Positions 5,069-32,945 of a stretch of DNA of 34,761 nt are shown here, in pieces (within the stretch, counting starts at the first letter, position 1; each line of letters begins with the position of its first letter). Source of the DNA: Lactiplantibacillus garii (GTDB lineage: Bacteria > Bacillota > Bacilli > Lactobacillales > Lactobacillaceae); the NCBI RefSeq assembly GCF_003885105.1, contig NZ_QWZQ01000035.1, positions 1 to 34,761 of the forward strand, in the 5' to 3' direction. The position numbers and the translations under genes were made by a program. A model generated the notes under the pieces. It was not told where the DNA came from and made no database searches. It saw nothing but the letters and a program-made list of their open reading frames with translations.

Positions 5069-5233
5069 GACTACCCCTCCATTTTAATTACTATGTTCAA
5101 ATCCATTATACTTGTTTTTGGAAAGGGTTACATCAGTTTTTCATTTTAGCTGCTAATCAACAGCCTCAACACACACGTTTTCACACCGATGACGTTAACA
5201 TTGCAAGTCACCGCGGCGCTTTTCTCATTTAAC

Positions 5234-5276
5234 CCAAAACGGCGGACAATCTCAAGACCCGGGATTATCCGCCGTT
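5234..5276 (-). terminator. Hairpin terminator, downstream of dacA
   Basis: AACGGCGGACAATC (5238-5251) pairs with GATTATCCGCCGTT (5263-5276) with a single mismatch and an 11-base loop. The minus strand continues with TTTT. It is the second of two hairpins behind dacA. Confidence 0.6.
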
Positions 5277-5430
5277 CTACGTTAATTTGCTTTTTGAAAC
5301 GTGTTCGCACCACCAATCGCTTCCGCTTAACCAAAAACGGGTGATAATCGCAAGCCCAGCGATTATCACCCGTTTTCCCTCATTTATCCTTTCGAAACGT
5401 GCTCGCTCGGGCAGCCCGTTCTACGTTAAT
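5272..5430. repeat. 15-bp direct repeats flanking a hairpin
   Basis: CCGTTCTACGTTAAT occurs identically at 5272-5286 and 5416-5430. Each copy lies close to a GAAACGTGYTCG motif (5296-5307 and 5394-5405). The region therefore looks duplicated and rearranged from copies of the interspersed hairpin repeat family described below. No gene is seen between 5069 and 5467; a 62-codon open frame on the minus strand (5146-5334) overlaps both the hairpin and the repeat and is probably not coding. Confidence 0.55.
5333..5376. terminator. Perfect 18-bp hairpin, bidirectional terminator
   Basis: The arm 5334-5351 (AAAACGGGTGATAATCGC) pairs perfectly with 5359-5376 around the 7-base loop AAGCCCA. T-runs follow on both strands. 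It is the best terminator candidate for the dacA operon. Confidence 0.7.
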
Positions 5431-5461
5431 ACTCGCAGGCTGTGCGCCCTCGCTCACACTC
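5394..5461 (-). repeat. Short member of the GAGTGTG...CACGTTTC repeat family
   Basis: Read on the minus strand this 68-bp stretch begins GAGTGTGAG seven bases after the dacA stop and ends CGAGCACGTTTC. These are the same termini as the 120-bp units at 11893-12260. Its core is shorter and carries a partly paired CAGCCTG/CGGGCTG stem. A second terminal motif, CGAACACGTTTC on the minus strand, lies at 5296-5307. Confidence 0.55.
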
Positions 5462-11796: not shown

Positions 11797-11827
11797 TTAG
11801 CTCCTTATGGTTTTATTTTTATCTGTA

Positions 11828-11856
11828 AAGATACCAAAACATCGGGGTAAATGCAA
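11828..11856 (-). promoter_or_regulatory. guaB promoter
   Basis: On the minus strand TTGCAT (11851-11856) and TATCTT (11828-11833) are 17 bases apart. The leader is about 30 bases, too short for a purine riboswitch. Confidence 0.6.
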
Positions 11857-11867
11857 GTAACAAACAT

Positions 11868-11882
11868 GAATTTCAGAAAATT
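11868..11882. promoter_or_regulatory. CodY-box-like palindrome upstream of guaB
   Basis: GAATTTCAGAAAATT matches the CodY box AATTTTCWGAAAATT at 13 of 15 positions. It lies just upstream of the guaB -35. CodY responds to GTP, so the link is plausible, but no codY gene is in the window. Confidence 0.3.
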
Positions 11883-11892
11883 CTTATTTAAA

Positions 11893-12012
11893 GAGTGTGA
11901 GGTCCTGACAGGTTGGCGGCGAGGATTAGCCTAGTCATCAGTAGCATGCGGGCTGGGCATGGTGCTGGTGACGTAGCTAACCGCAACCGGCAGTCAGGCC
12001 CGAACACGTTTC
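11893..12012 (+). repeat. Hairpin repeat unit 1 of 3 (120 bp)
   Basis: This is the first of three tandem 120-bp units separated by AAAA. It runs from GAGTGTGAGG to CGAACACGTTTC. The outer stem CCTGAC/GTCAGG and inner stems GGTTG/CAACC, TTAGC/GCTAA and GTCATCAG/CTGGTGAC give a long, nearly continuous hairpin. No reading frame of note is present. Confidence 0.75.
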
Positions 12013-12016
12013 AAAA

Positions 12017-12136
12017 GAGTGTGAGGTTCCAACGGGTTGAGAGTGAGGATTAGCCTAGCGGGCAGGATGATGCGGGTTGGGCATCGTGCTGACTGCGTAG
12101 CTAACCGCAGCTCTCAGTTGGACCCGAACACGTTTC
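12017..12136 (+). repeat. Hairpin repeat unit 2 of 3 (120 bp), diverged
   Basis: It has the same length and ends as unit 1, but the stem sequences differ on both sides in a compensating way. CCAAC/GTTGG replaces CCTGAC/GTCAGG, and TGAGAG/CTCTCA replaces GGTTG/CAACC. TTAGC/GCTAA and CTA/TAG are kept. This paired change supports a conserved fold. Confidence 0.75.
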
Positions 12137-12140
12137 AAAA

Positions 12141-12260
12141 GAGCGTAAGGTCCTGACAGGTTGGCGGCGAGGATTAGCCTAGTCATCAGTAGCATGCGGG
12201 CTGGGCATGGTGCTGATGACGTAGCTAACCGCAACCGGCAGTCAGGCCCGAGCACGTTTC
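12141..12260 (+). repeat. Hairpin repeat unit 3 of 3 (120 bp)
   Basis: It is almost identical to unit 1, with GAGCGTAAGG at the start and CGAGCACGTTTC at the end. Its inner stem GTCATCAG/CTGATGAC is perfect, where unit 1 has a G-T wobble. It abuts the DUF1129 terminator. Confidence 0.75.
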
Positions 12261-12291
12261 AAAAAAGAACCCAGATTGCTCTGCGTTCTTT
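12261..12291. terminator. Terminator of the rsmG-noc-parAB-ychF-DUF1129 operon
   Basis: AAAGAACCCAGA (12264-12275) and TCTGCGTTCTTT (12280-12291) pair with one mismatch and a 4-base loop. On the minus strand this is followed by further T, totalling six. Confidence 0.65.
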
Positions 12292-12300
12292 AAAAATCGC

Positions 12301-20764: not shown

Positions 20765-20782
20765 TTGATTTTACGGGTTCGG

Positions 20783-20853
20783 GTGAACACTTCCCAAATT
20801 GTGGTTAGCTACGCTATCAGCACCATGCAAAAACCGCACTTCCTTACCCTGAT
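20783..20853 (-). repeat. Truncated member of the hairpin repeat family
   Basis: Read on the minus strand it contains GCATGGTGCTGATAGCGTAG and GCTAACC, the same core as the units at 11893-12260. It lacks the GAGTGTG end. Its 3' end near GAAGTGTTCACCCGAAC is degenerate. Boundaries are approximate. Confidence 0.55.
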
Positions 20854-20858
20854 GGCCG

Positions 20859-20943
20859 AAACGTGTTCGGGCCAAGCTGGGGCTGTGGTTAGCTACGTCA
20901 CCAGCATTATGCACAGATTGCGACTTTCCTTATCCTGATTGCT
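20859..20943 (-). repeat. Truncated member of the hairpin repeat family
   Basis: On the minus strand it holds GCTGGTGACGTAGCTAACC and ends CCGAACACGTTTC (20859-20871). The GAGTGTG half is missing. It shares ATCAGGRTAAGGAA with the neighbouring truncated copy, at a period of about 90 bases. Confidence 0.55.
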
Positions 20944-21059
20944 GAAACGTGTTCGGAGTGGCTGATGCCTGTGCTTGCTACGCTATCAGCACCATGCAAA
21001 AACCGCATGATACTGATATCTAGGCAATGCTCAGCATCAATCCGCTACTCCTCACACTC
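20944..21059 (-). repeat. Full-length member of the hairpin repeat family (116 bp)
   Basis: On the minus strand it starts GAGTGTGAGG at the LysR stop codon and ends CGAACACGTTTC. The paired arms GGAGT/ACTCC, GATGC/GCATC and TATCAG/CTGATA keep the fold of the 120-bp units with different sequence. Confidence 0.65.
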
Positions 21060-21955
21060 TAAACCCACAGCATCTGGTCCGGGTACTCCCTTGTCAAAAA
21101 CTGCTTGATTGCCCGGATCATCATCGCCGTCGACGGGGCCGTCGCCTGGGTCTTATTCGCAACCAGCGCAATCTCCCGGTTATACGGCTCCGCAAACGGG
21201 TACGTGTTAACGTCCCCCGTTAACTTGCGTAACGCTAACTGCGGTAAAATTCCCATACCTAACCCCGATTCCACCATCGAAATAATCGACTGGTCATCAA
21301 TTGAGAACCGTAAAAAGTTATTCGTAACGTGGTAATGGTCCAGCGCCAACTTCGTATCACGGTCGTAGTCACTCTGTTGTAAAATAAAGTTTTTATCCGC
21401 GACATCGTCGGTCGTAATGTAATCCCCGTTTTCCGGAACAAAATCGGCCGGCGTTACGCAGTAGATCGGGTCGTTAATTAGTGAATGGACCAGTAAATTT
21501 TCATTGACTGGCATCGAAGTAAACCCAATATCGATCGTCCCAATTTTAGCCCAGTTGGTTATTTCATTAAAATTACCCTGCATCACCGAAATTTTAATGT
21601 TCGGATAATTATGGTTAAATTGGCGAATGATCCGCGGTAGCCAGTTGATGCAAACACTACTAAACCCGCCGATTCGAACCGACCCGGAGTGCAATCCCTG
21701 GATGTTATCCGCCACTTGTCGCAAGTTACTCTCCGTGTTTAGGATTTCTTGAACGTACGGCAAAACTTGCCGACCATCACTGGTAAGTTCAACCCCCGAA
21801 CGGTTCCGAATAAACAGTGGAAAACCGAGTTCCTTCTCAAACTGGTTAATGGAGTGACTGACCGCACTAGGCGTCACGTTAAGCGTGGCGGCGGCTTGGT
21901 AGAACGTGTGCTGGGCCACCACCGTTGCAAAGACTTCGTACGCAAAGTTTGCCAT
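21059..21955 (-). CDS. LysR-family transcriptional regulator
   Basis: A 298-residue LysR-type regulator of standard length. The HTH is at about residues 3-62 (FYQAAATLNVTPSAVSHSINQFEKELGFPLFIR). A two-lobe effector domain follows (VRIGGFSSVCINWLPRII onward). It is divergent from the aminotransferase and amino-acid ABC genes and is probably their regulator. The effector is likely an amino acid or its keto acid, which is inference. AAAGGGG precedes the ATG. Its TAG stop overlaps the first bases of a repeat element, so its 3' end may be shaped by that hairpin. Confidence 0.88.
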   Translation of the reverse strand: MANFAYEVFATVVAQHTFYQAAATLNVTPSAVSHSINQFEKELGFPLFIRNRSGVELTSDGRQVLPYVQEILNTESNLRQVADNIQGLHSGSVRIGGFSSVCINWLPRIIRQFNHNYPNIKISVMQGNFNEITNWAKIGTIDIGFTSMPVNENLLVHSLINDPIYCVTPADFVPENGDYITTDDVADKNFILQQSDYDRDTKLALDHYHVTNNFLRFSIDDQSIISMVESGLGMGILPQLALRKLTGDVNTYPFAEPYNREIALVANKTQATAPSTAMMIRAIKQFLTREYPDQMLWV

Positions 21956-32306: not shown

Positions 32307-32750
32307 ATGGCAGAAACCGATAGTCAAATCGCATTAACGATGACCTTTACGTTACGGCCACCGTTCAAAACGCACTTTTTACTGATTAAAGATTATAACG
32401 CTGACGTGCACATTCCCGCCCGCGACGGCGTGTTAACGGCCATAATTGCCAAAAACATCCCGTTATCACCGGCTCTCGAGCAGTTGAAGGCCATCTTTGA
32501 CGACGTTCAAAATCCGGTTTACTGGCAACTACACGACCAGGCCGTGCACGAATACTTTACCAGTCATCCCAATATGCGGCCGGTGCTCCCCTTAGACTTA
32601 CTACAAGTCATGCTGAACACGTTATCGGCACAGGGGTTAAGTGATGACCAACTGACTCACATCATGAAGGCCGTTTTTGACCGGTTGCAAACCAACAACT
32701 TCAATGGTCAGGCCGCCCAACGAATTCTAACCGAATTTACCGCAAAATAG
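32307..32750 (+). CDS. Hypothetical protein, unknown family
   Basis: A 147-residue soluble protein that I do not recognise. It has no signal, membrane segment or cysteine. The N-terminal half looks beta-rich (LTMTFTLRPPFKTHFLLIKDY), the second half helical (LDLLQVMLNTLSAQGLSDDQLTHIMKAVFDRLQ). GGAAGGAAG precedes the ATG by about 9 bases. It follows the rRNA methyltransferase after 24 bases, so they share a transcript. Base composition matches its neighbours. A link to RNA modification is only suggested by position. Confidence 0.65.
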   Translation: MAETDSQIALTMTFTLRPPFKTHFLLIKDYNADVHIPARDGVLTAIIAKNIPLSPALEQLKAIFDDVQNPVYWQLHDQAVHEYFTSHPNMRPVLPLDLLQVMLNTLSAQGLSDDQLTHIMKAVFDRLQTNNFNGQAAQRILTEFTAK

Positions 32751-32771
32751 TTGACCGTACCAAAAAACAGA

Positions 32772-32887
32772 GTGTGCCAAAAGTCGGTTAGCGGGTGAGC
32801 ATTAACGGCGTATGGCGAATAATCCTGGGCTTGGATTATTTGACATACGTGGTTAAGCGGAGCCCGCTGACTTTTGGCGCACGTTTC
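32772..32887 (+). repeat. Long hairpin element, member of the repeat family by its ends
   Basis: It begins AGAGTGTG and ends GCGCACGTTTC, as the other members do, but its core is different. GTGTGCCAAAAGTC (32772-32785) pairs with GACTTTTGGCGCAC (32869-32882) with one wobble. AGCGGG/CCCGCT (32790-32795 with 32863-32868), TTAA, TATG/CATAC-type and AATAATCC/GGATTATT stems follow inward. The 111-base fold begins 21 bases after the upstream stop. Confidence 0.65.
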
Positions 32888-32907
32888 GACAATAATTATT
32901 CGGAGAT

Positions 32908-32945
32908 AAAACAGAGGCTGTGACTTTTGCCACAGCCTCTGTTTT
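32908..32945. terminator. Perfect 15-bp terminator between convergent genes
   Basis: AAAACAGAGGCTGTG (32908-32922) and CACAGCCTCTGTTTT (32931-32945) pair around an 8-base loop. It serves both the unknown gene and the HAD gene. Confidence 0.8.

Follow-up and report, generated by a model that had tools for sequence, protein, structure and literature searches.

In this study, we found that three hairpin units at positions 11893-12260 of a DNA stretch of Lactiplantibacillus garii (contig NZ_QWZQ01000035.1; the whole stretch of 34,761 nucleotides that was analysed is called the window) belong to a larger family of repeats. The family is probably a new non-autonomous, modular and structured interspersed element that behaves like BOX, and its fold is probably needed mainly for spreading. 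Its copies are dispersed, the structure is constrained on one specific strand, a given site can carry a copy in one species and lack it in a related one, and A-type units prefer terminator T-tracts. The step that assigns the fold mainly to spreading draws on small samples, one of which goes partly against it.

Hairpin units of the window and their fold

The original prediction placed three 120-nt units with AAAA spacers between guaB and a DUF1129 gene. Direct reading of the sequence bore out the units and the spacers, and guaB (IMPDH) and DUF1129 were confirmed as the flanking genes. TRF described the array with a period of 124 and 3.0 copies. Both flanking genes lie on the - strand, and the three units on the + strand are antisense to each of them. 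The near-identity of units 1 and 3 (97%) was also found as claimed, and the identity between units 2 and 1 was 77%. The replacement of both arms in unit 2, from CCTGAC/GTCAGG to CCAAC/GTTGG, and the unchanged TTAGC/GCTAA in all units agreed with the earlier description. For the second stem, the pairing TGAGAG/CTCTCA in unit 2 stood, while the register GGTTG/CAACC given for units 1 and 3 did not; the family consensus pairs TGG.CGG with CCGG.CA in these two units. On the + strand, unit 1 folded with -63.4 kcal/mol (z -5.9), and the fold of the - strand was weaker (z -3.95); on either strand, none of 200 shuffles was as good.

The same family is found at four loci in the window, three of them besides 11893-12260 (Table 1).

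Table 1. Units, modules and the tail of the hairpin family in the window
Feature	Position	Strand	Remarks
Unit 1 (A type)	11893..12012	+	128.7 bits
Unit 2 (A type), both stem arms replaced	12017..12136	+	130.8 bits
Unit 3 (A type), 97% identity to unit 1	12141..12260	+	121.8 bits
A-type unit	20944..21059	-	covariance-model match; adjoins LysR-family ORF 21059-21955 (-)
3' module: 3' half of a unit after AGCAATCAGGATAAGG, without its own 5' arm	20858..20943	-	
Second 3' module, degraded	20782..20857	-	outer end approximate
C-type unit, 20 nt 3' of the stop of ORF 32307-32750 (+)	32770..32887	+	73.2 bits
3' tail common to most C-type copies	32888..32943	+	GAGGCTGTGAC/GTCACAGCCTC-type hairpin, T-rich stretch at the end
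Shortened unit	~5394..5461	-	25.1 bits

The first base of the unit at 20944-21059 (-) is the last base of the LysR-family stop codon (21059-21061), and two further units of the L. garii genome likewise have one base in common with the ORF before them. The tail at 32888-32943 is terminator-like by eye and is absent from the list of the consensus terminator scan. Behind the shortened unit at 5394-5461, divergent modules continue on the - strand down to about 5230. Longer perfect hairpins (e.g. AAACGGGTGATAATCGC/GCGATTATCACCCGTTT) with the same ACACGTTTC end follow the shortened unit in this region (5230-5460, - strand), and they are perhaps a further module type.

In the family as a whole, the units are non-coding and about 115-125 nt long. 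They start with A-GAGTG and end in CACGTTTC, which is usually followed by G(A/G)CAAT; the base before GAG was A in all 49 units having that end. On one strand the unit forms one long stem, in which the internal loops (CUA/GUA and UGA/G(G or C)A) and a CGGGU bulge are conserved, and most letters of the stem change freely in pairs. The nearly constant parts are the initial GAG, the CGG after the first stem, GAG.ATTAgCcTAg, cGtaGcTAA and CaCGTTTc. The subfamilies have only the conserved marks in common, and several of them have changed all letters of the outer stem and yet remain complementary.

Covariation was counted in two alignments, of which A1 comprises 20 of the 29 places that BLAST found in the L. 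garii genome, aligned by sequence, and A3 holds all 76 matches from 49 chosen sources aligned to the covariance model. The E-value cut used for A3 also dropped partial matches and the weak matches that the same palindromes gave on the opposite strand. In A1, 95.9% of 772 pair cells were standard and 25 of 39 pairs showed two-sided change; double-change cells numbered 120 against 36.5 in shuffled alignments (reached by 0 of 500 shuffles; slid controls 9-17). The A3 counts lean towards the structure because this alignment was fitted to the model, and there 96.5% of 2878 pair cells were standard, 35 of 39 pairs showed two-sided change, and double-change cells numbered 899 against 268.7 (0 of 500 shuffles; slid controls 88-171). 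G·T pairs strongly outnumbered A·C mismatches, by 58 to 7 in A1 and by 220 to 28 in A3; therefore the folded strand is one strand, the one that starts with GAGTG.

The observation of three units with covarying stems was real, as the double changes lay far above chance in A1 and also in the many-copy alignment A3 (76 copies; 0 of 500 shuffles in each), and paired change preserves the folded form. Its interpretation is supported in part: the + strand fold has been kept by paired change, and host use as the reason for this lies outside the supported part.

Distribution of the family and selection on the fold

A covariance model (R1) built from 20 L. garii units gave 50 matches in the genome of this species, which include two weak ones (28.7 and 26.5 bits) and one of only 56 nt; BLAST had found 29 places. 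R1 matched in all 20 other genomes of the genus, with 8 to at least 60 matches each, and in the same survey in 5 of 16 genomes of other Lactobacillaceae genera. No match was obtained in 23 genomes of other families of the order, with up to 60 candidates scored in each. The search of Lactobacillaceae genomes that had been proposed with the original prediction gave matches in at least 96 of 251 genomes and in 17 of 40 genera, and 96 is an undercount, since two genomes (G023 and G032) had one match in the order-level survey and none in this draw. In a draw of 200 genomes across the class, only the L. garii genome was positive and the other 199 had no R1 match, an absence that is weaker than it appears because of the same undercounting. 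The number of candidates scored per genome was up to 60 in the order-level survey, 14 in the 251-genome draw and 18 in the class draw, and the copy numbers are therefore lower bounds.

The exact core pattern is carried by Lactiplantibacillus plantarum EGD-AQ4, L. modestisalitolerans and L. plajomi, and further by Loigolactobacillus backii, Loigolactobacillus iwatensis, Companilactobacillus musae and Pediococcus stilesii. Six plasmids of Ligilactobacillus salivarius have a copy with 74-75% identity, and R1 gave 106.9 bits on the one examined. These plasmid copies point to horizontal spread of the family, and we count them in favour of the best explanation.

Selection on the fold was followed in two groups of similar copies. 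In the recent burst of 56 copies in G019 and G015, 30 private changes broke 13 pairs when 13.2 were expected, which is the neutral rate. Changes present in at least two copies broke 5 pairs (8.1 expected, P 0.078), and those in at least three copies broke 2 (5.3 expected, P 0.026). As the private changes are neutral and the shared ones break fewer pairs, the burst points to selection on spreading copies; it suggests, in a small sample, that the fold matters for the copies that spread. In the C type of L. garii (16 copies), 35 private changes broke 12 pairs (17.5 expected, P 0.016), changes in at least two copies broke 7 (9.5 expected, P 0.117) and those in at least three broke 5 (4.2 expected). 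This C-type result is weaker and mixed, it goes against a pure spreading-level reading, and it leaves room for a use at the site. Orthologous copies of G015 and G019 with both flanks alike amounted to one or few pairs with few differences.

Insertion sites, larger repeats and the search for a mobiliser

Related species differ in the presence of a family copy at the same site. Of the 20 same-genus loci that extend into the guaB-DUF1129 spacer, 3 have a unit there (L. garii, G012 and G003), always at the same point after TTCTTATTT and with different stems; G008 was left out of this count because its sequence ends before the spacer. The corresponding spacer of G018 (L126, 2157-3174) is about 1 kb long, AT-rich and without a unit. 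The sequence after a conserved terminator (GTACGAAGG, T-run, GTG) could be read in 14 loci and starts with a unit in 4 of them, the stems differing each time; seven more loci were unreadable and stand outside the 14. At a third site the L. garii unit is intact. In G004 and G016 no more than a resemblance to its 5' end can be made out by eye, and G010 and G018 carry a unit at another point of the same spacer, in the opposite orientation. Alternatively, the recurrent presence at the same terminators could come from old insertions that evolved in place.

The A-type units prefer the base just after terminator T-tracts: 12 of 25 isolated units have a T5 run in the 20 nt before their start, against an intergenic background of 0.062 (P 8e-9). 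Several of these T-run units visibly follow a terminator hairpin, and none of the junctions is clean enough to tell which stem part was lost. The remaining 13, unit 1 (11893) included, have no upstream T-run, and among the C-type units 2 of 16 have a T5 run upstream. Of the 16 C-type units, 11 lie after a co-directional gene, at no more than 63 nt from its stop in 10 of these 11, and most C-type copies have the hairpin tail. The neighbours of A-type units show no preferred orientation (9 +-, 9 ++, 8 --, 7 -+); the genes in these orientation counts are mechanical ORFs of at least 90 aa. No target duplication was evident by eye at the unit ends, where the spacers are strongly diverged, and a fixed short target is absent at the left end, as only the A before GAG is constant and positions -2 to -8 vary. 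A promoter scan at one locus and a terminator scan at the units gave nothing unit-specific.

The units are arranged alone, in tandem, together with 3'-half modules beginning GGCAAT, or as a module inside a larger repeat. At L058 (1050-1700, - strand), a unit is followed by four tandem modules of its own 3' half, and the single 5' arm faces several possible 3' arms. A noncoding repeat of ~1.05 kb in G019 and G015 encloses 122-nt copies that are nearly identical. Among 28 oriented G019 loci, 27 have more than 100 bp of 5' flank in common, and one has only 5 and 12 nt. At the chosen loci, the internal slot of the larger repeat held a family unit in 6 cases and another module in 8, and it was empty in 1 and rearranged in 1. 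This repeat (G019 loci L209-L240; G015, G003) has at least 40 matches in each of these three genomes, and Rfam gave no match in the four loci tested.

No mobilising gene was found in a survey of Y1 transposases and RVT_1 in 21 same-genus genomes, nor between the element ends of the candidate pairs that were opened. A Y1 transposase as partner, of the REP/RAYT or IS200/IS605 type, was rejected; it occurs in 13 of the 21 genomes and is missing from 8, and all 21 carry units. Reverse transcriptase was rejected as well, RVT_1 being present in 9 of the 21 and absent from the L. garii draft genome, and G004, G016 and G018 have neither of the two. Among 326 loci, six candidate pairs of ends lay more than 400 nt apart. 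No autonomous long version with the same ends was found in the opened set: the pairs at L146 and L149 enclose housekeeping genes and L058 is a module array; the pairs at L169 and L257 lay outside this set. Nor was a phage origin retained, with no match in phages and no exact core pattern in viral contigs. The idea that the sequence might be part of a known transposon found no support as far as tested, with no such phage match and no transposase inside the two end pairs opened out of the six.

Explanations and relation to known elements

The original prediction knew of no named element with these ends, and this agreed with Rfam, which gave 0 matches in the whole window at the gathering score and none within 11800-12300 with E values of up to 1. 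A literature search, whose coverage is thin for subscription papers, found no description of the family, and a search with pieces of the sequence gave, among the matches listed, titles on primers and other organisms. The family seems to be absent from Rfam and from the searched literature, and it is apparently undescribed. It is small, non-coding, multi-copy and polymorphic in its sites, as a MITE in the general sense is. It is also a modular composite with tandem modules, a BOX-like feature, as seen from the 3'-half modules in the window and elsewhere (L058).

The family behaves like BOX or EFAR, a likeness of behaviour and description rather than an established membership in either. EFAR of Enterococcus faecalis, credited to Venditti et al. 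2007, are reportedly modular palindromic mini-insertions that are inserted into stem-loop sequences. The hairpin family is likewise modular and palindromic, and the stem-loop insertion reported for EFAR resembles the T-tract preference seen here. Efa-1 has 163 bp and 65 copies and is described as a pair of adjacent stem-loops, in contrast to the one long stem with conserved internal loops here, a comparison made by description (PMC2267715). BOX of Streptococcus pneumoniae consists of small intergenic repeats with many copies that fold strongly when transcribed, vary in how many internal or tandem modules they contain and are enriched at gene ends, as in our family (PMC3049150). The same paper gives BOX ISSpn2-like terminal repeats and target duplications (PMC3049150); neither was evident in the hairpin family, the ends of which were read by eye. 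BOX is reported from streptococci; the hairpin family occurs across Lactobacillaceae, and its model R1 had no match in the 199 other genomes of the class draw. RUP and SPRITE of pneumococcus are small structured interspersed repeats too, but the published account gives RUP about 107 bp and IS630-like ends, and SPRITE an 18-bp duplex and a U-rich tail, both architectures unlike that of our family (PMC3049150).

Under the explanation that we favour, the units would be moved by an enzyme acting in trans that requires the folded strand, as RNA or as single-stranded DNA, and the structure would be selected mainly in the copies that spread. After insertion, the copies would decay and be carried as passengers of gene ends, and some of them may perhaps serve as 3'-end or terminator parts. 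Such service could instead be the main reason for the fold, if the family were a cis-acting RNA used by the host, a dispersed 3'-UTR or terminator element that acts on the ends or the stability of mRNAs and whose fold is maintained wherever it sits. The position and hairpin tail of the C-type units, the low pair breakage by their private changes (P 0.016), the conserved unpaired loops and the G·T bias, which fits RNA, are consistent with this. We consider it unlikely all the same, because the A-type units are not preferentially oriented, units occur at the tested sites in no more than 3 of 20 and 4 of 14 species, pairs are broken at the neutral rate in the G019 and G015 burst, and the three units at 11893-12260 are antisense to both neighbours. 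That the units are stand-alone genes of trans-acting small RNAs is extremely improbable: the fold is very stable and conserved, as such genes would have it, but a genome has tens of copies, which stand in tandem and are embedded in larger repeats, and there is no unit-specific promoter-like site in the scan of one locus.

The form of the moving strand is a separate matter. Group IIC introns insert behind terminators, and a retro-mobile element, a bacterial analogue of SINEs whose folded RNA moves, would be inserted in the same manner. The strand-specific fold with its G·U preference, the selection seen on shared variants and the insertion after T-tracts speak for such an element. It is nevertheless very improbable, as RVT_1 is absent from the L. 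garii genome and from 12 of the 21 same-genus genomes, several of which have about 50 copies (for example G012, G017 and G018), and single-stranded DNA accounts for the strand bias equally well. The broader proposal of a mobile element that spreads as one folded strand, in its boldest form RNA, and inserts at the exits of intrinsic terminators as a counterpart of SINEs appears improbable to us; if it were true, the fold would be selected for copying and not for a task in the host.

The explanation by a trans-mobilised repeat raises a concrete question, namely the mobiliser of the hairpin family. With carriers in 17 or more of the 40 Lactobacillaceae genera sampled, and with tens of copies in Lactiplantibacillus genomes, the family provides a very large natural collection of compensatory changes in a single bacterial structure. 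It is also a test case for structure that is kept by the host as against structure that is kept by spreading, and it is a likely source of variation at gene ends and terminators in food and probiotic bacteria.
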